A DNA stretch of 64,000 nucleotides from the NCBI GenBank assembly GCA_038049695.1, contig CP142456.1, positions 78,825,422 to 78,889,421 on the forward strand, in the 5' to 3' direction. The stretch is from Cinnamomum chago. Taxonomy: Eukaryota > Streptophyta > Magnoliopsida > Laurales > Lauraceae. The position numbers were made by a program, and so were the translations under genes. A model generated the notes under the pieces. That model was not told the origin of the DNA and did no database searches. It saw only the letters and a program-made list of their open reading frames with translations. Within the stretch, counting starts at the first letter, position 1; every line of letters begins with the position of its first letter. Shown piece by piece: positions 35,796-55,859 of the stretch.

Positions 35796-36009
35796 ATCTC
35801 CTATGGCCTCAAATCACAATCATAGGAAAGTATCTTAATCCTTACTTTTAGGAACTTAAATTTGATTGAAAATTGCTAAACCATTACATGACCTATCTAG
35901 ACATTCATTGGCCAAACTATAAATTTTTTTTTTTGATGGCGCTTAAATTTCAATATGGACCAAAAAAGACTTTGAGAGGAAATATCACCCTTTTTATTAT
36001 TTATTTTAT

Positions 36010-36155
36010 GGGGATTTAACGGGAAAAACCCTCTTAAACACTCTATTAATGAATTTAGACCTAATAAAACCCGACAGACAGAAGTGGCCCTTAAGTTACG
36101 TTTCTTTTTTTTTTTTTGTCTTCTAGTGACATAGTCGATATCGACGCTCATTCAT
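36010..36155 (+). repeat. Left terminal inverted repeat of the MULE
   Basis: It matches the complement of 54340-54487: GGGGATTTAAC then GAAAAACCCTC at the tip, a T-run plus GTCTTCTAGTG in the middle, and ATAGTCGATATCGAC at the inner part. Similarity is patchy (roughly 70%), so the two repeats have diverged. Downstream (36160-36290) is a pyrimidine-rich leader-like stretch, presumably the promoter and 5' untranslated region of the transposase gene. Confidence 0.85.
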
Positions 36156-36424
36156 AAGTTTCATATCCAGTTTCGCGTCTTCTTTTTCCCTTTTCATCGT
36201 TCGTCTCACGTCTGCAACACTGCCTGGCGACGAACAAGAGCTGCAACTCTTTATTTCACTCCATTAAGGGTGGTGGTTGCACTCTTTTAAGAGGGATAGG
36301 TACACACTTGAATCTTTATTATTAGTTTTGATGGTTTCCCCAAAACTTTTCATTTACCCAATTTGTTGATTCATATTCTACCTTTTATATGTTACCAGCC
36401 CTAGACAAGTAATGAATGACCTTG

Positions 36425-36700
36425 CTCTGTCCAAGAAGATGGCACCCAAGTGCATCTACAGTTGTGAACGGTGGATATTTGCTCCGAAAAAAACCCATCC
36501 ATCTTTGATTTTCCATACGTTTTTTGGGTTTAGTGTTTTAAATGTGCAATTTTTTGACTATCCCAAAAAATGGCACCCAAGTGCATCTAGAGTTTTGAAC
36601 GGTGGATATTTGCTCCTAAAGTGACACTACCATCTTTAATTTGCACATACGTTTTTGGATTTAGGGTTTTAAATTTACATGTATTTGACAATAAAGAAAT
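36425..36700. repeat. Subterminal tandem repeat, about 133-bp units
   Basis: Two units share ATGGCACCCAAGTGCATCTA, GAACGGTGGATATTTGCTCC, CATACGTTTTT and GTTTTAAAT (about 36437-36568 and 36569-36697). A third, decayed unit follows near 36848-36925 (GGTGGATATGCTCCTACAGT). They lie between the left terminal repeat and the first transposase exon. Confidence 0.75.
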
Positions 36701-37423
36701 CACTTCTCTTCTTCACTGTATTATTTATCCTAACTAAAACTAAAACACAACATTCATGCGCCATGTTAATTCATTTTCATCTATTTCCTTTTACAAGATT
36801 TAGAAATTTTAACAGCATATTTGCCTTGTCTCATGAAATTGTTATAAAAGGTGGATATGCTCCTACAGTTACACTATCTTATTTAGTTTTCATAATCCCT
36901 TTTTGGTTGAGGGTTTAAAATGCGCATAATCTCTGTATGTCATTGTTGAACAATACAATTAGTACACCCTTAGAATATCACAATGCATTTACTTTAAACA
37001 TACATTTGGCCTTTCACCATGGGCACTGTTTATGTATACATATTTACCTTTTATTCCTATCACTATTATAAACTAATTTAATATTTATAAACAGCATGTC
37101 AGATTGCGAGGTTCTAATCATATTCCACTACGATGGAAACTTTGAATTTGATATTATGCGTCCCGTCTATAACGGAGGAAAGCAGAAGATGAGGTATTTA
37201 TCAACCGACATAACATATGGGTCATTGGTTGCTGAAGCAATCGAAGCATCTAATTGGGATTCATCTACTAAAAGTTTAAGCATACAATACCTTCATCACA
37301 ATGGACGTGCATTTTCACTGGCTAGCATTGAAGATGATAATGATGTGAACAGAATGATCAAAGCATCGGGTCAGGATACAAATGGGATCTACTTATATGT
37401 TTCTAAAAGTTGGAACAATGGAC

Positions 37424-39630
37424 TGTAAGTCCTGGGGATCCGAACCCTAGAGGGGGGGTGAATAGGGTGAGCTCCAATTATGACCAATTTTAATCAAATT
37501 TAACTTCTTAAAAACAAACTAGTCACATGTGATGATTTATCATGCAAGATGCGGAAGCTAACAAAAGAATCACCACAAAGCAAGCACCATCACACAAGTA
37601 TTTATAGTGGTTCGGCCTCAATGCCTACATCCACTACCGGCTTGTGATCCAACACCCCACCGGATTTCCACTATTTATGCTTTTCAATAGGCTAAGCAAT
37701 AACCTTTACAATATGCTTTCCAAGGCTAAGCAATAACCTTTACATTGATGTTTTTCAAGGCTTAACATCAACCTATACATTATGCTTTTATAGGCTAAGC
37801 AATAACCTCTTCAACCACAAGGTTGGTTATCTCTCTAAATTAGTGTCTATAAACACTTGATGGAGATTCAATTAAGCTCATTACAATGCCTCTTAATTAA
37901 GTGGATATGGAAGTGAAAAACTAATACACACTCACACTATGAATGCAAAGATGAAAGTACATGAAGTGTGTGTGTGTGGTCCTCAATCATTTTGAAAATG
38001 AAAGCTCATAAATGTATGCCTAAGGCTTTTGAAAGTTTTAGCTCAAAAACATTTATGATTGAGGAAATGCTAATCACATGTTAAAAGTAACAACTTGTTA
38101 ATGAGATCAAAGATTTACAAGTTGTATGAAATTAATTAGCTCTAAACATGTGAAGCATATGGATGTCAATCAAATCAACAATGAAGCTCAAAACATAAAA
38201 AATAGATTGATTGAAAATAGGGGACAAATCATATGTAATTATAAATACAGCTTGAAAAAGATATACCTATCAAAGTAAGGCAAGTTGTGAAACTTTAAAA
38301 CAATAATACACATATGATTTGTAAAGATGTTGAATCCAAAACATAAGATACATTTGAAAGAGATTTTCTTATAATGGAAAAACAACAACCAAAGATTCAA
38401 CAAAGTATATGAATCATGTTACATATTTCATTAACATGATCTACTTAGATTTACCAAAGATAAAGTACTACTTTGATTGAATCAATGGTGATGCATCCAA
38501 AACAATAGATCAATTCAAAATATAGAACATGCTAAGGATACAACACATCATAGTTTATCATGTTACTAAAGATTTACCTAAGATAAAACAAAACATGAAA
38601 ACATATGATTTGTAAAGAAGTTGAGTCCAAAACATAAGATAGTTTTGAAAGTGATTTTCTTATGATGGAAAACAACAACCAAAGATTCAACCAAGTATAG
38701 GAATCATGTTACATATAATTTCAAAGGTTCTTTCATTAACATGATCTACTTAGATTTACCAAATAAAGTACTACTTGGATTGAATCATATGGTGTTGTAT
38801 CCAAAACAATAAATCAATTCAAAACACAAAACATGTTAAGGACACAACACAAACATAGTTTAACATGCTAGAAATGATTTACCAAAAATAAAACAAAGCA
38901 TGAAAACATATGATTAAGGAAAGTAAAGCCTACTTGGTGATTTAACTTCATTAATCCAAGCTTTAGCTTTCCTAATGCTCCCCTTCATCCCATGGTTCTT
39001 TTCCCTTGAATATGCCTCAAAACCTCTCAAGGAGGGGCTTAAAATTCCCAACATTTGGCAAAGGAAAGAACTCATATTTATAGCAAAAAGTGCCCAACGG
39101 CTAGTCCTCGGTCGACCTAGACACTGGTCTCGGTCGACCTAGAACACACAACGGTCAGATTTCTGACCGTTTGAGCTTCATGTCACTTTTTACTGCAGTG
39201 TCCTCGGTCGACCGAGACCTCTGGGTCGGTCGACCGACGACACTGCCGGGCCACCCCCCTTTTTGCAAAAATTCCAACTTTTGCCTATTAGAAGGTAATT
39301 CTCTGGGAGACCTTTTGGCCACTAAATCAAGCTTAAAAAACATGTTTTAAAGATTCTAATGGTTTTTAAAACATGAACATAAAAAGCCAAAAAAGATTCA
39401 AAACTTTTAAAACAAAGGCTTGCTTGATTTCTTGAAAACTCTTTTCTAAAACAAATGCATCCAAGATTTAAAACAAAACATGCATAAATCAATACTTTTA
39501 CAACTCTTTAAAAACAATGCATGTATAAAACAAGATATCAAGATTTCTAAATCAATGCAAATGTGTGTGAATCAAATGAAGCTTGAATGATAATGCATCC
39601 ATCAAATTGCAATCTACAAAATACCTAACA
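37424..39630 (-). repeat. 3' LTR of the Sirevirus-like element
   Basis: 2207 bases, against 1767 for the solo LTR. The difference is explained partly by an internal tandem duplication. Shared landmarks include CCTAGAGGGGGGGTGAATAG, TAGTGGTTCGGCC, TAGGCTAAGCAATAACC and the TCGGTCGACC(G/T)A palindromes near 39105-39240. A TATA-like GCTATAAATATGAG (minus strand) sits just downstream of the palindromes. Confidence 0.78.
38311..38907. repeat. Roughly 300-bp tandem duplication inside the LTR
   Basis: Units of 291 and 306 bases (38311-38601 and 38602-38907) both start CATATGATTTGTAAAGA and share CCAAAACATAAGATA, ACAACAACCAAAGATTCAAC and TTAACATGATCTACTTAGAT. The unit is single or absent in the solo LTR, so it expanded in this lineage. 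Confidence 0.82.
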
Positions 39631-42600
39631 ATCTCCCCCATTGCAATTTGATGGCAACTCACTCACCAATGAAAAACACACTTAGTCTTCAGCTCCCCCT
39701 AAGCTGGACAAGTCTTGAAATCTTCTTGGATGCTCCTTCTCTTAGCTTGAGCTCTTTTCTTCATTCTTCATGATGCTTGGTGCTTGATCATTCTTCAATC
39801 TTTCTTTCTTTATGGCCAAGCATCTTCTTTAGCTCCAAGCTTTCTTTCTTCTAGTTGCTCTCCCCCTTTGAGCATGCCTCTTTCTCCCTTTGGCAAGGTA
39901 TGTATTCTCTCCCCTATAGAAGATCATACAAAACCTCCCCTTAGGAAGCTTGGACATTCTCTTTACCCTTTTGAGAACTTGCATAATTTCTCCCCCTTTG
40001 CCATTAAATTGCAAAGGTACCTACACACATGAAATAAGAAAAATACCTTTAGTAGCAGCTGTTAACAAATGAAATCGAAAATGAAATACATAACAGGCTA
40101 TCATGTGAGGTAGTAGTCTCTAAGGGCTCAAAGGCAATCCAAGGGTGAATTTGATCAAAACTAATACTTCCTATGAAGGTTTACACTCCCCTTCAATCCA
40201 TTCTCTTCTTTTGTCAAACTTTTGACAAGATTTAACTATTAGATTCAAGAAGTAGATGGTTTAACCAAATGAGGATCAACTTCAAGGAAATGATTAGATT
40301 CATTTAACTATAAGGCTCATATGATCAAATTGCCAAAAGAGAGCTAGGTCTAAAGAGAAAAGCAATCATGGGATACCAATTGGAAAAACAAAAGAATACC
40401 AATTGAGATTTAAGGATAAGTCTATTAAACAAAATCACTCTAAAATGGATTTAAAGATATACCTATTAGGAAAAATCCAAATTAGAGCTATCCATGAAGC
40501 AATGGGGTTTATTAATCATAGCATCAAATAATCTAACTATGGAGAACATATGCTATGAAAATTTTGAACTCATTTCATTCAATCAATAAATATGACTATT
40601 AAAGTGCAAGATGAGTGAAATGAAATTCAAACATGAAGCCAACCTCAACTAATAACCAACCAATATTATGAACACATAAACATGGTGGTCATGAGATATA
40701 CCTATATGAGCAAAAGAGGTGGCAACATGAAAATTATGATGCTAATGGTGTGTGACATGGAACAATCATATTACTTATCAATGCACACAAGGTTTATCAC
40801 ATTCACAAGAAATCAAATCAATCAAAAAATATACCAATTGAAACCAATTGAATTTGATAACATGATAAAGAGCAAGAATGTGACAAACACAACATTCCAT
40901 CAAGCATCATAAATGGATATTCATCACTTTTAAAGATATGACTAATGAGCATAGTGATGAACAAGATAAATTGCAATGCAAAAGGATATAACTTTGTAAA
41001 GCATGCAATTTTCAAAGTGTCAAAATCATATGAAGTCAACATCTAAGATATCCATCAAACATATAGAAATATGAGGAATGGATTTCAAAGAGTTTCATAT
41101 GATTAAGATCACTACTTATGAAGTTGAAACATGTATAAAGATGATATCACTTAGAGAAAATACATGAATCAACATCATAACCATCCAAAAAGAATATGAC
41201 TAGAAGGCATAGAGGATGGATTTTAGTTCTAGTATGGTTTCTACAAATATAATAAATAACACAACCATACATAGAACGATTTGACATTTGCATAGAGAGG
41301 ATTAATCAACATTCAAGATCTAACTCATACCAATCATCAAAAAGAATATAACTATGTAAGCACAAGTAGGTATGAAGTTAAAATGATCAATCTATCATGG
41401 AACATCTCCACTCTTAGCAAATGTACTAAGCTTACAATGCAATGGAAAATGGATATGTGGTTTAAACCAAATGAACTTAGCACATAAAATCACATATGTA
41501 CTTAAAAAGCTCAAATACAAGATTTTACTATAAAGCACATAAACAATCATCAAAATGCATTAATGAGAATATACCAAGTTAGGCACATACATGCAAATCA
41601 ATGAAACCATATCCAACCAAGCAATGTAAGACATCAAAATCAATTTGCATAAAGAATGTAACTAAATGAGCAAAGATGCAAATTGTTTGTAAAAATTATT
41701 TCCTTTCAAATGATATAATCATAATTAGGCACAAGGAAATAAATTCAAGGAAAATGCTTCTATAAATACAACCAATAAAGCTTAGAACATTTTTCAAAGT
41801 TTCTCAAATCACTTCAATTTATGAAAGAATCATTTATAGAATTATGAGCAAGTGATTTTGAAAAACAAGAAGTGTACTATTGTAAAATTTTCAATTTGTA
41901 AAACAATAGACACTCACAAATTTTCCATACCAAGAGATATAACTTGAAAATCAATGGAAAACTTAAATAGCTCCAAATCATTTGATTTACAAAAAGGATC
42001 TAACTATGACAACCATCAAATGATTTTCCAACATCGATTGATCATGAAAAAACTAGCTATGAAAGCATTTGTAATCACAATCAATTGATCATGAATAGAT
42101 ATGCACTACAAGAGATATAACTATATGAACAAAATGCAAATCCATCATGAAAATATTGCAATCAAAGGATTTTGAAAACCATGAGATATAACTTAAAAAG
42201 TTCATGAATTCCCTGATCGTGACACATTTCGGAAGACTGTGGCTAAGTTCGCAATTTATGGAAATTTTACTCTGAAGCACTTGAAGACAAACATGTACAA
42301 AGTGACAGCATGCTGTAAAGATCAGAATTGCCCTTGGCACATTCATGCCTCTATCGTGGAATCAGGACCACAATTCAAAGTGCGTACGTATAATCCTGTC
42401 CATAGATGCTCGAAGCCAATGATGGGAATGGCACATAAACAGGCGTCAGCATTGTTAATTTCGGAGTTCATCATGGATAGAGTCCGACAAAATGTCAATC
42501 TGAAACCAAAAGAGATCATGAACGACTACCAAATGGAATATGGGACAACTATTAGTTACAGGAAGGCACATGTAGCAAAGGAGATAGCCCTGCGTGCAGT

Positions 42601-43888
42601 GCGAGGCTCTTACGAAGAGTCATTTCAAATGCTGCCTAGTTATTGTATTGAACTGCAGAGGACCAATCCAGGCACAATAACAAACATAGACACCACATCT
42701 GAGGACCGTTTCAGAAAATTTTTCTGGGCATTCGGAGTTTGTCTAAGGTCTTTCATTACTACGTGCAGACCAATGATTGCTATAGATGTGACACATCTCC
42801 GAGGGAAGTATCCAGGTGTCTTGCTCGTTGCCGTTACACACGATGCCAATCATAAGCTCCTCCCCATCGCTTTTGCCTTTGCGGAAGCCGAACGACGTGA
42901 CAGTTGGGAGTGGTTCCTTGCAAACCTACATATAGCGCTGGGTGAGCCTAATAACTTGACTATTGTGTCGGACCGTCAAAAGGGTCTTATTCCGGCGCTC
43001 TTGAACACCATACCCTCCGCAAAGCATTGTTATTGTTGCCGTCACATTGCCGAGAATATTAGGGTAGCTTTCAGTGATGCGGCAATTGTTATGAAATTTT
43101 GGCGTGCTGCCAAAGCAAACAGGCCGTTTGAGTATGATGCATATATGGCCGATATTCGGGCAGTCAACCAAGAGGCATTCACTTACATTGATTCAATTGG
43201 AAGGCAACGTTGGGCTGATGCACATGTAGAAGGACGGCGGTATGACATGCTCACTAATAACGCTGCAGAATGCACAAATGGCCTCTTAAAGGACACAATG
43301 GTCCTTCCTATTACAAAACAGGTCGAGGAAATACGGGCCAAGCTAATGGAATTTTACCAGAAGCGCCATCTTGAATAGGAAGCAATTACAAGCCGTCTAA
43401 CACCTTATGCGGAGAAAGTTTTGGAAAAAGAAAGTGAAGAAGCTCGACGATTGCATGTTCGTGTGGCTGGTCTAGTTGAGTTTCAGGTACAATCTGCGGA
43501 GTACGTGGACGTCGTCGATCTTGAACGCAAGACTTGCACATGTCAAAAATGGGAGATTTTGGGGATCCCGTGTTCTCATGCATTGGCTTCAATGAGAGTT
43601 AGAAACTATGACCCATATGAATTCTGCGAACATTGGTACCTATCAAGTGTATATCGTACGACGTATAGTGAAGTGTTGCATGCTACCCGAGACAGTAAAC
43701 AATGGGAGCAGACATCTGATGAACGAGTTTTGCCACCACGAGCTACTAAACAGCCAGGGCGGCTAAAGAAGAATAGGATTCGGACCGAGGATTGTGGCCG
43801 CCAACGGAGGGTAGTCACCTGTGGTAATTGTAAGGAGAGGGGGCATAATCGACAAAGTTGCCGCAATCCACCGTCGCAAATTTGAAGA

Positions 43889-44520
43889 TGGAAAGGGAAT
43901 GCAAGAGTCAACGTGAACTCCTTTTTGGTTGGTGTTGGTATTTTGTATAACAGCAATCTGGACAGTGTATAGTCTACTGAAGCATTTTTTGGAAGGGGAA
44001 TGCAAGAGTCAACGTGAACTCCTTTTTGGTTGGTGTTGGTATTTTGTATAACAGCAATCTGGACAGTGTATAGTCTACTAAAGCATTTTTTGGAAGGGGA
44101 ATGCAAGAGTCAACGTGAACTCCTTTTTGGTTGGTGTTGGTATTTTGTATAACAGCAATCTGGACAGTGTATAGTCTACTGAAGCATTTTTTGGAAGGGG
44201 AATGCAAGAGTCAACGTGAACTCCTTTTTTGTTGGTGTTGGTATTTTGTATAACAGCAATTTGGACAGTGTATAGTCTACTAGAGCATTTTGTATAAGGG
44301 GAATGCAAGAGTCAACGTGAACTCCTTTTTGGTTGGTGTTGGTATTTTGTATAACAGCAATTTGGACAGTGTATAGTCTACTGGAGCATTTTTTGGAAGG
44401 GGAATGCAAGAGTCAACGTGAACTCCTTTTTGGTTGGTGTTAGTATTTTGTATAAATGTGATAGAAGATGTTGCCGTGATGGGGCTTTGTACATTTTGTT
44501 CGGCGCATTTTTTGGAAGGG
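43889..44520. repeat. Tandem array of about six 101-bp units just after the transposase stop
   Basis: Units begin GGAAGGGGAATGCAAGAGTC at about 43890, 43991, 44092, 44193, 44294 and 44396. They run through AACGTGAACTCCTTTTTGG, GGTATTTTGTATAACAGCAA and GGACAGTGTATAGTCTACT. A partial seventh unit (GCATTTTTTGGAAGGG) ends near 44520. Copies are almost identical. The array starts within five bases of the transposase stop codon, so it would form its 3' untranslated region. Minus-strand open frames repeated across it are a by-product. Confidence 0.92.
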
Positions 44521-44704
44521 CATATTGTGTTGTGCCCATGTCTTTTCTTTTTGTAAGGATGAATTCCTTTTTGTGGTTAATATATGTTGAAAACTCTATT
44601 AATTTCTTGTGGATGCAAATGGTTTTAATTTTTCCAGCCTTATTGAGATATTGGCCAAATCTAGCGCCAAAAAACATCTGTTTTGTTTCACCTTAAAATA
44701 AGTG

Positions 44705-45056
44705 CAGACAGTCGATATCGACTGTGCCTGTGTTTTTTATGTTTCAGTTAAATGGTCGATATCGACTATAGTAATAGTCGATATCGACTATGTCTGTGTT
44801 TTTTATGTTTCAGTTAAGTGGTTGATATCGACTATAGTAATAGTCGATATCGACTATGTCTGTGTTTTTTTATGTTTCAGTTAAATTGTCGATATCGACT
44901 ATAGTAATAGTCGATATCGACTAGTGTTTTGTATGTTTCAGTTAAATGGTCGATATCGACTATAGTAATAGTCGATATCGACTATTTCTGTGTTTTTTTG
45001 TGTTCCGTTAAATAGTCGATATCGATTGTAATAATGGTCGATATCGACTATTTGTT
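44705..45056. repeat. Palindrome array, core TCGATATCGA, between the convergent MULE genes
   Basis: Eleven copies of the palindrome TAGTCGATATCGACTA or close variants lie in about 350 bases. They are mostly in pairs joined by TATAGTAA and separated by TGTGTTTTTTATGTTTCAGT, giving tandem units of about 65-70 bases. The same palindrome occurs once in each terminal repeat (about 36132-36146 and 54352-54367). Such arrays can be protein-binding sites or form cruciforms; a binding site for the element's own proteins is inferred, not shown. Confidence 0.9.
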
Positions 45057-45814
45057 GTTGAAAAACAACATAACACATTCATGAGGAAAAAGTCTGAATA
45101 TGTACAGACATTCACATTCCCATATACATGCTTCCCATACATTCATTCCTCCAATCCATGCTAATAATCCATTCTCATTCCATGAGAATAACAACTTTCA
45201 AAATTCATTGTTACTAAATTGTCCATGAGAATAACAAAACATTAGAATATGATAAATAACAAACCATTGTTACTAAAAGTGTTCCCACTACATAAATCAA
45301 CAACTTTCAAATTAGATAATGTCTTCTTCATCAATTTCAGTGCCCACAAGGTCCACAATTTCATCTACACGAAGTCAAAAAAAATGAATTAAATCATGTC
45401 ATTCGGGGTCTCCAACAACTGGCCAAAAACCGCAACAACTGAGGATGATCAAATCGGTAGGTTCAACAACTCAGGGAGATTCAGCCTATTAGCATTAACC
45501 TGCCAACTTCTCTTGAATAACTCAATGACAATTCTGCTTCGGAAGTAAGGGATGTCGGACTGCGTAAATGTGATTGGACGGCGGTGAACACAATGCTCAG
45601 CGAATGCAATAGCGAAAACTCCGCAATCATTACCATTGTCTTGATGAGGAATGTCTTCCTTGATCAGTATAGACCATAGAAATGGATCAGTCCACCCAAA
45701 ATGCATATACATAGCGTTCAACCACCCAATCTGCAACAATGTCAAAATTAATCAAAAGAGGGTAAAGAAATAGTATAGTTGAAGGTAATTAATTTTGTTT
45801 AAAATAATCAAGAT

Positions 45815-45985
45815 TGATGAAGGGAGAGAGACGAGAATGGGGATTGGCTTATTAGGTTAGAGTTGAAATGGGTCGTGGGGACTTGGGCTATTTTTAAGTG
45901 GGGGCTGGGCCAAAGAGGCCTTAGGGCCCGTATGGGAATTTTCCAGTGTTGGTGGGGGCTTCAGCTCCCAACCCACAAGTCCATG
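45815..45985. mobile_element. hAT-like terminal fragment in a PMD-Ulp1 intron
   Basis: It shares a nearly identical ~150-base stretch, in inverted orientation, with the left end of the 52046-53809 element: GGCTTATTAGGTTAGAGTTG, GGCCAAAGAGGCCTTAGGGC and TTTTCCAGTGTTGGTGGGGG. The terminus itself (CAGGGGCGG-type) is decayed or missing here. It lies in the intron between coding blocks 46393-46178 and 45730-45449. Confidence 0.65.
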
Positions 45986-47973
45986 TGTAGTCTCCTGTAC
46001 CAATCCCATGATAAACTAGTTTTTCCTCCTGGGTTTGTGATATGTTAGTACAAGACCTCTCACTGTGTTGTGTGATTTATGGTGGAGGAGATGAATGCGT
46101 TAAGGTAAGAAGTTTGCTTTACAAATGAGTTTTGGCCTAGTTGAGTTGGGACGTGAAACCAAGTGTACAATACTTACAAACTGCTCCGCCTTACTCCGCG
46201 TCAAACGATCACCAGCCAGACTGTTGTAGAATTCCCACCTTCTTTCATCAACGTAGCCCACAACCAACGTGAAATGGTTCCTGTAGTGTAGTACAAACAC
46301 TAGAGTACGACAATCTCGGGCTTCCCATACCCTGTGGCGATGCTTGCCGAAGGCAGCTTCAATACTGGCATCGGATCCATCCTGCCACCAACTCTGCATA
46401 CAGTAATGTATCCACAATATGAATGGTTAACACACAGTTGTGATATAAATCAGAGGGGTTTGTTCAAATTAAAGTGAATGACAATTTATCACAGACTTAC
46501 GGATATGCTTGGGTTCGAGACGAAAGCTGTGGGACATCCGTCTCTCATAATCTCAAAGTAAAAGTACATAAGATTGGTGTCCAGCCAAGTTCCCTCTTCA
46601 AGTGCTTTCTTTAGATCATTGCTGGATACCATTGTACAAATACTTGCTAGTTCATCTCCTCTGCATGAAAGAGATGTTTGTTAATAAACACAATTATTAC
46701 AGCAAATATATTAATGAAGATAGGTACAGTGTGGAAAAACACTAAGGAAACTTTCGCGCTTACTTTGTACTGTAATATTCGTTAAAACCCCTGACCAAGA
46801 ATTGCTCCTGCTCATTTAACACATAGCCCGAATGCACCATATAATGAGAGTAATCTGAAAACTTTACAGGCACCTTACGCATGCGGGGCAATCGCTTTAT
46901 TCTCCAAATCAAAGACACTATGGTAGCGGGGGGTGCTGCAGCAACTATAACGGAATCACTACGAACTGACACCGGGGTGTCGAACAATGCTCTGGCTATT
47001 GGGGGGGTGTCAAGCACCTCTTCAAATGGGGGTAAGTCAGCTGGCTCACCTTTACTTGGGGCGTCGTCACTTTGTTTCTTGCCATTTCTCTTGTAAATCT
47101 TCGCTTTTGTACTTTTCTAAGCAGCTTTCTTGACTCTCATGTGAGAGGGACCGGTCAAATCTGGATCAGCATCACTCTCTTTAGCTTCCTGAGAGGGAAC
47201 ACTGATGTGGGATGGACCAACATCAGTCTCGGGAACAGCATGAGGGGAAACAGTGTGTGTTGGACCAGGACCAGCATGGGTATCGGGAACACCCTGAGGT
47301 GGAGCACCGCGAGAGGTTCCAGTGTTTGTCTGCATATAAACAGTAAGGAACATCGTTATACTATTTAAATAGTAAATTGAAGTTCGGGCTGGGCGGTTTA
47401 CCTTCTCTACATCCTCATCGGAATCTGAACTGTTACACTCTTTCATGTTGAAGTTTTCGAATGATGTCCCGAATGCTGCTTTAAATGTCTTGAGCTTTTT
47501 CCGGATGGAATCCGCCAGCCTGGACATGCTTTTCTTCCTCCTGTCCGCCCGATCGCAAGATCGCTCTAAGCCAGCAACAAGTTCTTCGACCTGAATACAT
47601 CCCAATTCATGTAATCAGTTCAAATCAACATTACTACCATATGATTGGAAAAAATCAATTTTTATGCATAAAATTACTAACAAATTTCTGTGGAACAACT
47701 GGGGTTTCCTGCTGAGCAGGGGCTTTGGCCTCGGTACCCTCCTTGTGCTCAACCCTGCCTATGTGTTGGACAGTGTTAGCAACATACCAGAGTAAGTACT
47801 CTTCAGAATGTGCAGGCTGGGTGCACTCCTCCCCGTGCAATTGGAGTTGCCTTCTCGCAGCCCACAATCCTGCTATCTCTTCACCTATATACAAGCTGTA
47901 ATCAATTACCACTCTCTCGACACGTTCTCTTCTCACGTATGGAATACTGAAGGGAGGGGGTACAAGTTGCTTG

Positions 47974-49740
47974 TGTTAGGTCTTTTGTATTTGCAATTTG
48001 ATGGATGCATTTGCATATTGGCATCATGTGAATTCACACACATGCATTGATTTAAAATATCTTGAAATCTAGCTTTATACATGCATAGCTTTTAAGTTTT
48101 GGAAAAGCTTTTGTTTTATGCACGTTTTGGTTTTAAACTTGGATGCATTGGTTTTAGAACCCAAAACTCTTTTGAAAACCTAATTCATTGTGCATTATAT
48201 TTGGAAAATCATCTTGTGAATTTAGGTTTGAGCTTTGCATACTTTCAACCCAAAAAGAATCATTTGTGTATGCATTTTCATTTGAAAAGAGTTGTATTCA
48301 AATCAAGCTAGCCTTTGGTTTTAATCTTGTGAATCATTTTAGGCTTTGTGTTTCTCATGTTTTTAAACATCTTAGAATACCTTAAAACATATTATTTAAG
48401 CTTGATTTAGTGGCCAAAAGATCCACCAAAGAAAAACTTTGAAAATGGCAAAAGTTGGATTTTTGGCCCCAGGGACTCGCCCGACAGTGTCGTCGGTCGA
48501 CCGAGGACACTGCAGGGCCCTGGACAGTTTTTGAACTGTTTCAGGCCAACGGTCAGAAATATGACCGTTGTGCTTTCTCGGTCGACCGAGACCTGTGTCT
48601 AGGTCGACCGAGGACTAGCCGTTGGGCACTTTTTGGCTATAAAGTCCATTCATTTCCAACCTTTTTCAAGGCTTGATACATGAACTTTTGAGACCATTTT
48701 GGAGCCAAAGAAAGGGGAAGAAGTTGGAAATGCTAGAGGGCTATTTGGAAATCAATCTCATGAGTTTTTAAAAGGTACATCTTCTAAGTTATTTTGATTT
48801 CCATTCAAATGAAATTCATGCATGTTCAAATCCTTTGTATTTTCATTTATGCATGATTTCAAGCCCTTAAAGAGTTGTTTTGCAAACTCAATATCTTTCT
48901 TGGTAAATTAGATTAGTTTGCACACACTCTTATCCTAATCACATATGTTCTTAGACTTCAACTTTCACTCAACTTGTTTATCTTAATTCTTCAAAGTTGT
49001 TTGAATCTTTTATGTGATTAGTTTTCTCTTCAATCATCATTTTATAAACCTTGATTTTAAAATGCATCATGCATTCATTTAAAAGCTTCATTGTTAAAAT
49101 TGATTGAAGAAACTCATACATACACTTTGTGCACACACTTTAGTTTATTTTAGTGTATGTTTGTAATTGGAATTTCATTTTCCTATTAGCCTATTTAAGA
49201 GGCAAATTCCATCGTGCTTAAATTGTAATCTCTTAGAGTGATCTTTTGTGAAGACACTTTCTTTGAGAAATCTATATTTGTAAAGGTTATTGCTAAGCCT
49301 AAGAAAAGCAACTTGTAAGGTTATTGCTTAGCCTAATAAAAGCATAGTGTAGGGTTATTGCTTAGCCTAAGAAAAGCATCTTGATAGGTTATTGCTTAGC
49401 CTTGAAAAGCATCTTGTAAAGGTTGTTGTTGAGCCTTAGAAAAACAACTTTGTAAGGGTTATTGCTTAGCCTAGTAAAAAGCATAATTAGTGGAATCCGG
49501 TGGGGTGTTGGAGACACAAGCCGGTAGTGGATGTAGGCACGTTGGCCGAACCACTATAAATATTGGTGTTGTGGTGCATGCTATGTGGTGATTGATTTTG
49601 TATTAGCTTCCGCATCTTGTTTGTTTAATCATCACATGTGACTAGTTTAGTTTTAGAAATTAAAATTGGTCGAAATTGGTCATACTTGTAGCTCACCCTA
49701 TTCACCCCCCCTCTAGGGTTAGGATCCTCGTGGACTTTCA
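47974..49740 (+). mobile_element. Solo LTR (Sirevirus-like) inside a PMD-Ulp1 exon
   Basis: 1767 bases starting TGTTAGGTC and ending GGACTTTCA, flanked on both sides by GCTTG (47969-47973 and 49741-49745), a perfect 5-bp target duplication. Removing the LTR and one GCTTG restores an open frame across the junction. Landmarks include the palindromic CGGTCGACCGAGG near 48495-48612 followed by GGCTATAAAG (TATA-like). The right part has four to five degenerate GGTTATTGCTTAGCCTA repeats (about 49285-49470). Recombination between the two LTRs of a full element is the usual origin. Confidence 0.92.
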
Positions 49741-51159
49741 GCTTGAGCCCAAATTGCTTCATGACTCGCCACGTGTTATGGCGCTCAACAATCCAGTACC
49801 ACAATACAACGGTCGATGATGAAAAAAGATCGCGATCCCCTTTGGGTACGCTCAATCGGAATTTCTTAGGGTAGTTGGCGTACGGTTGCCAAGTGAACTG
49901 CATACGGTCATACAAACGAATCCAGTAAGACATGCAATAGGTAATCAAATTAAAAACATGTTAAATTGCATTGGAAACCAAATATATCTTTACCCCATCA
50001 GCCGACAAGGTGTTTAGTTGGTGCCTTACTTCCTTGACCGTTGCGAGGGGTGGGTGTTCCCCCAACCTCCTATGCCATGTCTTAAACAACGGAAATTGTA
50101 TGTCCTTCTTCCAACTACGATCTGGCAGAGGACACCGTCCAATGGTCATTCTAGAATAAGCCCATATCTGTGATGGAAAACAGCAAGATGCAGTCGTATG
50201 TTAGCTTTTAAATTTTTATCCAAAAATGGTAGGCATGCGAATTAATCACCTGTAGAAGCTGCAAAGGTCCCGTGGGTGTCCTTCTGGACTTACTATCCTC
50301 CTCTTGTTGATCTTTTCCCTTTCCTTCAGCCACTTGCGGATCCTCGTCCCACCAAGTTGCTTTTGCAAGCATTCTATAAAGGTTTGCAAGGCATGCGGGG
50401 GCCCATGCGTAAGGCTTGAATTCTTTAAACAACTCAAGCAGAAAAGCAGGACCCCTTGCACCGGAAGTCTGTATGAAGATTTGTCCGGACACCAAAAAGA
50501 ACAGATAAGCACGAGTGGCTCTAATCTCATCATCTTTGTTAATCTTAAAATCCTCATCCTGCCAGGCAGAAGGCTTGAAGTTGTCTTCAAGCCACTTAAA
50601 TTTTATCGTTATGCCAATATAGTCTTGCTTCTTCTGGGGCGTGATCCCAAGCAACTCCTGGCACACTGGCTCTACAAACCTCCCAGGGAAAGTCCGACCG
50701 GTTACGACCGGGCCATCCACTGGCAAGCCATAGATATAAGCAACGTCTTCAAGTGTTATAGTGGCTTCCCCCGTTGGTAGATGGAATGTATTTGTTTCTG
50801 GACGCCACCTCTCAATCAACGCTGTTATCAACGCATGGTCTATCACCATACGATCTATCTCCGACAAGTGGTGTAGTCCCGTCCGCCGAACGTATTGCTT
50901 CTGAGTGTCTGTCAGCACCCATATATCCTTGTCGGGGTTTGTTGGGATACATCTCATGCGACCAAGTTCCTGTAAGAACAATAATTATTGAGGTGACTCC
51001 AAGGAAAATACAATCCAACTAAGAGATTGAAATTATAGTTATATTATTGATATAGGTCCACATTATACCTCTCCTTGACGAATGCCTTCTGAAATATGAT
51101 TTCTTTGTGAGAATAGGAGTCCTCCCTCAGCATCGTTGGTGTTCTCTTTGTGAACCTGT

Positions 51160-52045
51160 AAAGAAGAAAGTGGAATGTGGTTGTGTTTATATAGGAGCAA
51201 GCATTTCTAAATCTTGATAGAACTACAATTGATGCCAAAGTCTGTTATGAGTCCATATCACTTATGGTTTATGATTTGCCTCATGTTAGACATGGGGAGC
51301 TAATGTACAGAGGGGCACATGATTTTATATTATTGAATAAGAAAGCTGATATCACATGAATGGCTAAAGAATCAACATTGATTTACTCAGGCTAAGCATG
51401 ACTGACCACTCCTTCATAGTTCACTACTTCAAGCACTGTCCACCATTCCACCAAGGAATGGTGCATGCTGTGGATCCACAAATCTTGCAAGTGTCAGTCA
51501 ACATAAAGCACAGCATGCCCACAACGACCACAAAGAAGGAAAGTAATATATTCAATTTTGGAGTCAACTAATCGATATAAGTAATGTCGTATGTGGGGGT
51601 GAATTGAATATTTAGTTATAGTACTCCACTACCCACAGACTATATTATAATACTCTCAATGGGTAGCTATGGGTAGGCCACATATTAAGTAATCCCGTAT
51701 TACATAACTCTTTCTATATTGATCATTAACAAACCACCACATGTAAGTGGAATGGCCAAATATACAAAAGCACGTAACGAAAAAAATAAATAAATAAATA
51801 AAAACGAACAAAATTTGCATCTAACTTGCCACTTTGGGAACATAACATCAAGGACAGCGAACAAACCACCCATATCTAACCTTTGTTGCACGTAAAAAGT
51901 AGTCGTACATTGTGATGGAAAAGGGTTTCGGTCCATGGTATGAACCAAAAACCAGGGGCGGACCCACGTTATCTTGAACTGGGGCAGTCGGCCCAGATCA
52001 AATCCAGTTTTGTACATCAAGTCCAATTAGGCTGTAGCCTATGCA
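51160..52045. other. Upstream region of the PMD-Ulp1 gene inside the MULE
   Basis: No coding block could be assigned. A second CAGGGGCGGACCCACG start at 51953 resembles the hAT-like left end at 52046 and may be a decayed or tandem terminus. The minus-strand frame at 51700-52026 has no motif that I recognise. Confidence 0.35.
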
Positions 52046-53049
52046 CAGGGGCGGACCTACATGTTGTGGGTTGGGGGCTGAAGCCCCCACCAACACTGGA
52101 AAATTCCCATACGGGCCCTAAGGCCTCTTTGGCCCAGCCCCCACATAAAAATAGCCCAAGTCCCCACGACCCATTTCAACTCTAACCTAATAAGCCAATC
52201 CCCATTATCGTCTCTCTCCCTTCATCACTCTTCATCTCAGGCGACCAACATTGGCGCACTACCATCGTGATGCCGTCCCTCCCTCTGGTTGATGCTCTGC
52301 TCCTCTTCTCTCTCTCTCTCTCTCGTGTTTTCCATTTATCTTTGCATCAAATCTTTGAATACAGATTGTTCTTTTGTTCTTGGTTTTACTTATCATTTGG
52401 ATGCGTTGCTGTTTTTTAGTATTACATTTGTTTGAAGCGTGTAAGATCTAGATATCTATTATGTTGTGTAGCTTGGGAGTTTTGGTTGTTGAGAAATTTG
52501 ATTGATACGTGTGGTTCTTAGATTTGATTCAATCGATAACATATGACTAGAATAAGAGATAGATGACCTACAGTGATTTCATATTATTGAGCATTGAAGG
52601 AGATTATGGCTCCTAATTTTTACTCGGTTATGTCGGATAGTCTTTCTTTGTTACCTATGAGATTAGAAATTTTGTTAAATGCATTTTTTTGGAATTGATT
52701 TCTTTCACTATGATGAAGTCGTGTTTAATGTTTATCTTATGAATAAAAATTATTCGTTTACGCCGGATATGATTAGGACATGTTTGACACGAGAAAGTAA
52801 GACATCCAAAAAAAAAAAACAATTATAAAATTATTCAACTAAATTCATTTGATTACCTAAAATTAGCGTTGGTTGTCGATTTAAGATTACCTATGTTTTG
52901 TTTAAGTAAAGCATAAAACTGTAGGAAATGAGCCACATGTTTAGAAACCTGTTTGATATAATTACCAAAATTTGTGAAACGTCTCTCAATTTGGGAGGGG
53001 GTATGCTAACTTCATGAAATTATGCATCTCGTAAAGTAAGAAATGAAAA

Positions 53050-53115
<66 letters not shown>

Positions 53116-53809
53116 GTGAAAATTTAAGAAAGGGAAAGAAACAAATTCCCTTGGATTCATGTCTCTGTTGATTAATTTGACTTCATACTTTATAAGCGTG
53201 GGCTGATCAGTGTTCTGCTCTAAAAATCTTATGAGGTTTCTAGTTACTGAGCTTCTTGATCATTTGAGTTTGGTGAGGGCCAAATTTAGTATTTTATTTG
53301 TTTGAAGTAAAAGATTATTAACCATAACCATTCATTAAAAGGATAAAACGGTATTATAATGATTTTTATGTTTTTGTTGCATTAATTGTCCATCTGTTTT
53401 CTTTTATTTCTTTTTCTATTTGTTTGATGGAAAAACATACAAGTCAAACAAATTAAATTTGTTAAAACAAATTGATTGACCTCATTTTAATTTCCATTAA
53501 TTGTCCTCCAGTTCAAGAGCCTTCTTTTAATTACCATCATCACATCTAGAAAACATTTTTTTTCTCGTTTTTTTTAGAACTAAGGGTACCTTAAATTTTT
53601 ATTCATGTGTATATTTTTTGTGGCTCTATCTGTGTGTATCATGATTGAAGTGGATTGGTCTTTGTTTAAATGACTCTTTAACCACATGTTTCTCAAGTGG
53701 GTTAGTTCTCTGTTGCCAAAGTTAAGAAGAACAACAAAACAGTAATTGAATTACTTTTCAAGTGATTCTAGTAAGCCCCCCTCAAACAAAAATCCTAGGT
53801 CCGCCACTG
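52046..53809. mobile_element. Non-autonomous hAT-like element nested in the MULE
   Basis: The left end CAGGGGCGGACCTA and the complement of the right end (CAGTGGCGGACCTA) are matching inverted termini of hAT style. The 1.76-kb interior has no transposase frame. A perfect 8-bp target duplication is not present: CCTATGCA precedes the left end, while CCTATGCT lies eight bases beyond the right end. The right flank may have been altered, or the true boundary is at 53817. It separates the PMD-Ulp1 gene from its terminal repeat. Confidence 0.6.
53051..53112. repeat. Compound (TG)n(AG)n microsatellite
   Basis: Ten TG units followed directly by about 20 AG units, inside the nested hAT-like element. 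The long uninterrupted purine stretch is likely length-variable. Confidence 0.9.
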
Positions 53810-54339
53810 GCAAGGATCCTATGCTTCAATGATGCAAAATTTCTTCCTCAAACCATAAAGCAGGCTACTTCACATTCGCTACTTGGAATCTAGTTGGCAA
53901 ATTCCATTAACATGTTATATTCATTCAAAACCCATTCATTATGATTCAGAAAACCCCACAGAAAAACCCAAAAACGGCAAGGATGACAGTGAATCACTTT
54001 CTACACGGACAAACTAGAAACTGTAAATAAAATTGCATTTTCATGAAACTACAAACTTAAAAATAGATTGCAAGGTCGTTCCCTTTCAAATGATCATTCC
54101 CATCGAAAAACAATAAAACCCACTCCAACTTTAGGCGCCAAATATGAAAACGAAAACAAAAAATACCTCCATGTGCGTCAAAGGTTGTAGAATCTTTGAA
54201 AAGTTGGACCGAATGTGATAGAGGACCACCGCCTGAGACCACCGATGGGAGAGAACAATCGCCAGCGAGGATGAAAGCGAAAAAGGTAAAGGAAGAAGAA
54301 GACAGTGAAGGTTAAAAGCGGTTTCGTTGCGGTTTTGTA

Positions 54340-54487
54340 TGGAATATGAATAGTCGATATCAACTATAGCACTAGAAGACAAAAAAAAAAGGTAAACGTC
54401 AATTAAGGTCCCATTATGTTCGCCGTTTTCTAGTGGGGCCAAATTTAATAATACCTCATTTATGAGGGTTTTTCAGGTTAAATCCCC
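54340..54487 (-). repeat. Right terminal inverted repeat of the MULE
   Basis: Complement of the left repeat, with tip GGGGATTTAAC, GAAAAACCCTC, a T-run plus GTCTTCTAGTG, and the palindrome variant ATAGTTGATATCGACTAT. Just inside (about 54180-54310, minus strand) is a pyrimidine-rich leader-like stretch with a possible splice donor after GCACATGGAG (GTATTT), a candidate first exon of the PMD-Ulp1 gene. Confidence 0.85.
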
Positions 54488-54821
54488 TTATTTTATTTAT
54501 TTTGCTTACCTGTCATGAGCTGCGATATTTAGCGATAAGATAATCCCAATTTTTTTAAATAAATATCCTATATATATTTTTTTAATTTTGAAAATTAATA
54601 TAATGTATTTTCTTTATTTCTTGACCAATTGAAAGTGTTTTGAAAGCTCGATGATTCCTCTCTTGGTTTTGGAAACTAATCTCCGAAAAAATCTCCTCTC
54701 TCCCGATCATTCCAAAACCGAATATATCATCTCTCATCTTTCCAAAACGCAATCAAAAGCAAAAAAAGCTCTCGATTTTCAAAGCAAAAGAGCTCTCCAA
54801 TTCTTGAAAAACCCACCAGAT

Positions 54822-55859
54822 ATGACGAGTCCTTTCTTCTTAAATTACATCAATACCCCTCGCCGTCCTCGCTCTCAACGCCGCCGCGGTCCCGCTCCAA
54901 ACCCCGTCGGCCAACAGCATTCTCCTCCAACTCCGAAACCCGTTCCGATCCCGGTCCGATTCGTCGGATACGATACGGACAGATCCGAGGCCGCGACGAA
55001 GATCCAGAAGCTCTTCCGAAGCTTCATTGTGCGGAAGAACGTGAAGAAGATCGTCAAGATCAAATTCCAAGTCGAAAAGATCCATAGTCAGATTTCGCAC
55101 GACTTCGATCTGGTGGCGCGAGATGCCAAGGAGCGGCTTAGATTGAGCGAGAAGCTGATGTCTCTGCTCTTTCGATTGGATTCGGTTAGCGGAATCGATC
55201 CCGCAGTGAGAGATTGCAGAAAGGCCGTGATCCGCAGAGTGGTTGCGTTACAGGAGGCGTTAGATACGATCTTCGACAAGCAAGAAACCGAAACCGAAAC
55301 CGCTTCTGATTTCGTCGATCAAACCCTAGAAACTGAAGGTGTTGTTGAATCGAACAAGGATGAGTGCAGTGATCTTGAGAGCCAAACCTTAGAGGCGGTG
55401 CATGTGCAGGATCCAGCTGGATCTGAAGCTGTTGTTGATGATTGCAAAAATACGTTCTTTACTGTTGATAATCAAGCACTAGAAACCGCATATACAGATG
55501 AAAAAAGCTTTGAAAAGCTCAAGGAAGGAAATCAACAAGACCTAGAAACCAAATCTAAATGTATGGAGAAGATGAATGAAGAAGGTAGTGTGGAAGGAAG
55601 GATCGAAGAAGAAAAGGCTAAGGAGGAGGTTGTGCGATCTGTGGAAGAATCGAAAGGAGTGAAAGAAGAAGTGGTTGAGAAGGTGAGGGAGGAGAATGAG
55701 AAGTTGAAGGGAATGGTGGAGGAGCTGTGCGAGTGGAATGCGGTGCAGAGTCGGTTGATTGAAGCGCTTTCGCAGAGAGTGGACAAGTTGGAGGAGACGG
55801 TTGCGAGAAGTGAAAGACTTCGTAAGAAGAAGAAGATGTTGGTAAGATGGATTGTTTAG
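54822..55859 (+). CDS. IQ-motif and BAG-domain protein (BAG5-like)
   Basis: Predicted co-chaperone: BAG domains bind the Hsp70 ATPase domain, and an IQ motif next to the BAG domain, as in plant BAG5-7, binds calmodulin. A single exon encodes 345 residues from this ATG. A basic, Pro/Arg-rich N-terminus (RRPRSQRRRG) is followed by an IQ motif at about 57-76 (AATKIQKLFRSFIVRKNVKK), a BAG helix bundle at about 84-160 (ISHDFDLVARDAKERLRLSE...RVVALQEALDTI), an acidic Glu-rich middle, and a C-terminal coiled coil (about 270-340) with a basic end. The frame is open upstream to an ATG at 54651. I prefer 54822 because the upstream part is pyrimidine-rich and leader-like. The longer form would have 402 residues. 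The MULE ends only 335 bases upstream. Confidence 0.82.
   Translation: MTSPFFLNYINTPRRPRSQRRRGPAPNPVGQQHSPPTPKPVPIPVRFVGYDTDRSEAATKIQKLFRSFIVRKNVKKIVKIKFQVEKIHSQISHDFDLVARDAKERLRLSEKLMSLLFRLDSVSGIDPAVRDCRKAVIRRVVALQEALDTIFDKQETETETASDFVDQTLETEGVVESNKDECSDLESQTLEAVHVQDPAGSEAVVDDCKNTFFTVDNQALETAYTDEKSFEKLKEGNQQDLETKSKCMEKMNEEGSVEGRIEEEKAKEEVVRSVEESKGVKEEVVEKVREENEKLKGMVEELCEWNAVQSRLIEALSQRVDKLEETVARSERLRKKKKMLVRWIV

Follow-up and report, generated by a model that had tools for sequence, protein, structure and literature searches.

The DNA analysed here (the window) is a stretch of 64,000 nucleotides from Cinnamomum chago (contig CP142456.1, positions 78,825,422 to 78,889,421), and its positions 36010–54487 are occupied by a Mutator-like element (MULE) that carries a transposase gene and a second gene for a plant mobile domain (PMD) joined to an Ulp1-like protease domain. 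The unit was opened by GGGGATTTAAC at 36010 and closed by its complement at 54487, and within the window this 11-mer was confined to these two ends. Alignment of the two ends, which an earlier note on this DNA had described as terminal repeats, showed terminal inverted repeats (TIRs) at 36010–36145 (+ strand) and 54353–54487 (− strand), with 103 of 136 columns identical and one gap (BLAST, E 2e-22). Conserved blocks were found at the tip (25/28) and at the inner end (15/17 and 11/12), and the middle between them had 43/67 identical positions. The 9-bp target-site duplication TTATTTTAT was exact on both sides, at 36001–36009 and 54488–54496. Given the base composition of the flanks, a 9-bp match by chance was estimated at 2e-5; 4 of 2704 9-mer pairs between the two 60-bp flanks were identical, the true pair counted in. 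In agreement with the note, the AT-rich duplication therefore counts for somewhat less than its 9 bp would imply. Long TIRs, a 9-bp duplication and matches to PF10551, PF03108 and PF04434 above cut-off were all present. The element is best explained as a decayed TIR-MULE from a Lauraceae-type plant.

The two genes are convergent, with the transposase on the left (+ strand) and the PMD-Ulp1 gene on the right (− strand). Pfam matches on the two strands bore out that one MULE holds a MuDR-type transposase and a PMD-Ulp1 protease gene, and the start of each gene inside its own TIR was supported. Maize MuDR shares this layout, its two genes converging from starts in their respective TIRs; maize mudrB is not known to contain a PMD or an Ulp1 domain. 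The element had been called a complete 18.5-kb MULE, which holds for the two ends, the only complete parts; both genes are broken and much of the length is later insertion. With a 4.8-kb truncated long terminal repeat (LTR) element, a 1.8-kb solo LTR and the roughly 1.8 kb enclosed by hAT-like ends taken out, about 10 kb of MULE was left. This copy is dead as it stands.

The protein of the right gene has a PMD in its N-terminal part (PF10536, 1.8e-62, profile positions 1–288 of 347), an Ulp1-like domain in its C-terminal part (Ulp1/C48, PF02902, 1.2e-8) and a low-complexity linker between the two. At least 11 exons were modelled on the − strand, and 8 of 8 modelled introns were GT-AG and in phase. 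The first coding exon, inferred from the sequence as ATGGAG followed by gt, lies just inside the right TIR (54167–54172), and the next (51069–51155), upstream of the PMD, resembles the start of P0002. The PMD was placed by gene model and Pfam in a main exon (50250–50969) and two further exons (49994–50167 and 49746–49897), the last of which is cut by the solo LTR. The exon after the solo LTR (47682–47968) and a linker exon (47402–47590) were placed by gene model and relatives. The gene model gave the remaining exons: a proline-rich linker exon with loosely repeated peptides (47120–47329), an exon (46764–47116) downstream of TAG 47117–47119, where either a stop or a splice acceptor may lie, an exon at 46501–46660, an exon with the H and YNSL of the Ulp1 domain (46178–46393) and the last exon with its Q and C (45449–45730). 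The gene model is backed by the Cinnamomum protein P0001, which combines PMD and Ulp1 and aligned with 93% of the query piece at 45% identity.

A PMD-Ulp1 fusion was found beyond this locus, with P0001, P0015 and P0108 of Cinnamomum micranthum having PMD and Ulp1-like sequence. The later piece of the right gene had one match, P0001, among 7994 proteins scored. The PMD piece had 519 matches, and PF02902 was found in 2 of the 120 among the matches listed (P0001 and P0015), in a search whose length limits excluded full-length fusions. In blastp searches against 149 collected proteins, the linker piece had 18 matches and the Ulp1 piece had 4 (P0001, P0108, P0015 and P0016), all from Cinnamomum micranthum. 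The window PMD grouped with 12 Lauraceae proteins (support 100/100); beside this group stood a further nine rows (98/87), of which eight were eudicot proteins with names, MAIN-LIKE 2 in several cases, in a midpoint-rooted tree in which the 98/87 join may be a long-branch effect. Judged by its protein relatives, the window would most likely come from Lauraceae.

P0001 matched SENP1 at 7.5e-9. In the window, P0001 and P0108, the H, Q and C were kept and the Asp was replaced by Asn (YNSL), so that the full His-Asp-Gln-Cys set of C48 proteases, which we take to be the Ulp1/SENP active-site residues at these positions, is lacking its Asp. On chromatin proteins, SUMO or a related tag would be the substrate of the Ulp1-like part or, since Asn stands in for the usual catalytic Asp, would only be bound by it. 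A single-sequence structure model of the P0001 Ulp1 part had a pLDDT of 33 and was dropped.

The PMD-Ulp1 gene could be a captured host gene, a passenger with no role in transposition. Capture of ULP genes by MULEs is described as frequent (PMC2528002) and capture of PMD-C by MULEs was inferred twice (PMC5418596). The gene of this copy is also broken. A passenger role is nevertheless quite improbable, since the whole multi-exon gene begins inside its own TIR, four diverged Cinnamomum proteins match the Ulp1 or pre-Ulp1 part, and the window, P0001 and P0108 share the same H, N, Q and C; the start in the TIR, the diverged relatives and the shared residues argue for long upkeep of PMD-Ulp1.

A 12-bp palindrome, GTCGATATCGAC, which is absent from the earlier note, was found at 13 sites in the 64 kb with two mismatches or fewer, compared with 0.4 in simulated sequence. 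One site lies in the left TIR (36134–36145, offset 125) and one, with one mismatch, in the right TIR (54353–54364, offset 124). Repeat and motif scans placed the other 11 in a 66-bp tandem array (44710–45051) between the 3' ends of both genes, where they span 44711–45048 with spacing that alternates between 22 bp and 39–45 bp. A second tandem array of 101-bp units (43889–44455, + strand; 5.6 copies, 96% matches; repeat scan) follows directly after the transposase stop and could be a further target. TIR-like units in the 66-bp array past the palindrome were considered and found to be unsupported.

RNA folding of 44700–45060 gave −148.2 kcal/mol against −78.5 for shuffled sequence (z −13.9, 0/100 as good). 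This fold and the position of the array between the two 3' ends would suit a hairpin-forming spacer (a terminator, an insulator or a source of small RNA), with the likeness to the TIRs being a relic of copying. This is improbable; any palindrome array folds in this way, and the same 12-mer at the same offset in both TIRs is left unexplained. The palindrome may instead be a transposase site or a host-factor site that drives the TIR promoters, with the array as a reservoir of sites and PMD-Ulp1 doing something else. It sits in the inner conserved TIR block (11/12), and in MuDR such a block is the usual place for transposase or promoter sites. This explanation is rather unlikely; the TIR palindrome is joined to the conserved GTCTTCTAGTG block (15/17 with flank), a block that the array is without, and the array and the TIRs are not clearly alike beyond the 12 bp.

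A structure model of the PMD of a relative matched the DNA-binding part of the DNA-bound VANC21 structure. This comparison of models supports that the PMD shares the fold of the VANC21 DNA-binding part. In VANDAL21, the non-coding DNA has tandem repeats with a 9-base motif to which VANC21 binds, causing loss of methylation (PMC5735166, PMC10398659). The KIU genes are VANC genes to which an Ulp1 domain is added, each acting on its own kind (review PMC13317346), and transposons may make PMD proteins against silencing according to the review PMC8616336.

By analogy with these systems, the PMD-Ulp1 protein would bind GTCGATATCGAC in the TIRs, where the promoters of both genes are expected, and in the internal array. 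Bound there, it would relieve host silencing of its own element in a sequence-specific manner, as VANC does for VANDAL and KIU for its own, with the Ulp1-like part acting on, or only binding, SUMO or a similar tag of chromatin proteins. This mechanism is considered to have an even chance of being correct. A wider proposal, offered tentatively and at somewhat less than an even chance, is that the PMD belongs to a single fold family with the DNA-binding domain of VANC, so that MAIN/MAIL1, the PMDs of retrotransposons and VANC/KIU would come from one sequence-specific DNA-binding module, and that this MULE keeps the complete kit, a PMD-Ulp1 anti-silencer with a palindromic target in the array and the TIR promoters.

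Several points weigh against the proposed mechanism. No second copy of this MULE was seen within the 64-kb window. The palindromes in the two TIRs count as one event because the TIRs share ancestry, and the likeness of array and TIR beyond 12 bp, at its best among 22 comparisons, was equalled in 19 of 500 shuffles. The VANC21 motif is not a palindrome, whereas the motif here is a 12-bp palindrome and is in the TIRs too. The TM-scores of the PMD-VANC21 match were modest, 0.40 and 0.49, and VANC21 was not found when the PMD alignment profile was compared with PDB sequences. DUF1985 gave no match in the window PMD piece (Pfam, E up to 1) or in the Lauraceae proteins P0002 and P0015; it matched in 23 of 46 PMD relatives, all below the Pfam cut-off and the 46 mutually related. 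Likeness in fold is no proof of likeness in function, and silencing is promoted by MAIN and MAIL1, which are PMD proteins of the host.

In the other comparisons, the PMD profile matched 4 PDB chains, all clathrin light chain, at E 0.3 or worse, and the best PDB match of the window PMD exon was a ribosomal protein at E 1. A viral fold library gave 18 matches to E 10 and none under 0.001. A control with 18 transposases (E up to 10) listed 25 of 26 families, and DUF1985 was not one of these 25. DUF7745 (PF24924) matched in 10 of 46 PMD proteins (best 3.3e-6) and may likewise belong to the proposed PMD-VANC fold family.

VANDAL21/VANC21 and VANDAL6/VANC6 of Arabidopsis are MULEs with a second gene beside the transposase, as here. 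VANDAL elements have a short motif in non-coding tandem repeats (PMC5735166), and the array with its motif is the candidate target here. The VANC variable regions are said to hold tandem peptides (PMC5735166), and loosely repeated peptides are found here in the proline-rich linker (47120–47329). In contrast, VANDAL elements are called non-TIR (PMC13317346), while the present element has TIRs and a Pfam PMD with an Ulp1 part; likewise, KIU is VANC with Ulp1 (PMC13317346) and here PMD is joined to Ulp1. The likeness to Kaonashi (KI) MULEs proposed in the earlier note held in part. The strand of the Ulp1 gene opposite to the transposase is the same as in KI-MULEs, but these are non-TIR (PMC2528002), while the TIRs here are about 136 bp and Pfam gives PMD, not DUF1985. 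In design the likeness is closer, because the PMD model matches VANC21 and KIU is VANC with Ulp1 (PMC13317346).

In melon, rice and grapevine, MULEs with ULP1 have Ulp1 downstream of the transposase, as here, in TIR and non-TIR forms (PMC2528002); this grapevine paper does not mention a PMD (the term 'mobile domain' has no occurrence), while a PMD is present here. PMD-C is carried by MULEs of grasses and Amborella, fused to the transposase (PMC5418596), while the PMD of the present Lauraceae-type element is joined to Ulp1 in a convergent gene of its own. Fusions of a PMD with a protease have been mentioned (PMC7156037). In the two papers found on VANC together with PMD, these were treated apart or, in PMC8616336, side by side as counter-silencing ideas. 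Ulp1-bearing MULEs, PMD-bearing MULEs and VANC systems are each already known.

In the literature searched, with subscription journals mostly outside its scope, no paper was found that pairs PMD with Ulp1 or PMD with DUF1985, none for the structure 9lnj, and none since 2024 on the VANC21 crystal structure; one was listed for DUF1985 with Ulp1. Within that same literature, a TIR-MULE whose second gene encodes PMD-Ulp1 and whose array and TIRs share a target-like palindrome was not found, nor was a fold link between PMD and VANC21, though such a link may have been published elsewhere. The earlier note suggested that the PMD fusion and the internal layout may be undescribed; the fusion itself also occurs in P0001, P0015 and P0108. 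If the interpretation is true, PMDs bind specific DNA, a statement that is testable because the fold match is to a DNA-bound anti-silencing protein, and the element supplies a named 12-bp candidate site. Host silencing (MAIN/MAIL1) and transposon counter-silencing (VANC/KIU) would then be tied to one protein family.

The transposase gene (MULE PF10551, 1.4e-18; DBD_Tnp_Mut PF03108, 1e-10; SWIM, 5.1e-10) has a 5' coding part ahead of the LTR element (37096–37423), placed by its reading frame, where the start of Cinnamomum P0132 was 97% identical over 109 residues. The DBD_Tnp_Mut and MULE domains, placed by Pfam and relatives (42206–43375), are followed by an in-frame TAG (43376–43378), at which P0121, P0122 and P0123 are open, and by the SWIM zinc finger with a C-terminal zinc-knuckle-like motif that was below cut-off (43379–43885), all on the + strand. 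The transposase gene is not intact, as it would be in an autonomous MULE, with the TAG at 43376, the LTR element and 157 residues fewer than P0132. Relatives at E ≤1e-3 numbered at least 29 among 7997 candidates scored; identity to the query was 96% over 24% for P0132 (Cinnamomum micranthum), 93% over 60% for P0123 and 81% over 99% for P0121 (691 residues).

Nested LTR and hAT-like DNA was found, in line with the LTR and hAT insertions described in the earlier note. Repeat comparison placed an LTR of a truncated LTR element at 37424–39630 (TGTTAGG...ACTTACA on the − strand), with the purine tract GGGGGAGAT just inside it. The rest of this element, also on the − strand (39631–42202, far boundary approximate), occupies the place of the 157 P0132 residues absent from this copy. 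The solo LTR (47974–49740, + strand) interrupts a PMD exon and has a perfect 5-bp duplication, GCTTG, at 47969–47973 and 49741–49745. Both LTRs belong to one family but point in opposite directions, and they share 85% identity over 1497 aligned columns. A second nested transposon with the transposase between these arms (inverted repeats at 37.4–39.6 kb and 48.0–49.7 kb) was rejected, because the arms are two LTR insertions of one family and the solo copy has its own duplication.

Within the first intron of the right gene, hAT-like ends at 52046 and 53809 had no clear duplication, and a further end was found at 51953. A 172-bp insert in the Ulp1 intron (45807–45978) was a 97% inverted match to 52064–52235, so that one hAT-like family is present in both of these introns, the Ulp1 one and the 5' one. 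Outside the MULE, an open frame at 54651–55859 encodes a protein that has a BAG domain (PF02179, 1.5e-11) and an IQ motif; its ATG is 164 bp from the right end, and the MULE therefore sits just upstream of a host gene. Elsewhere in the window, direct repeats of 70–92% identity were found at 12.2–14.9 kb and 22.9–26.2 kb.

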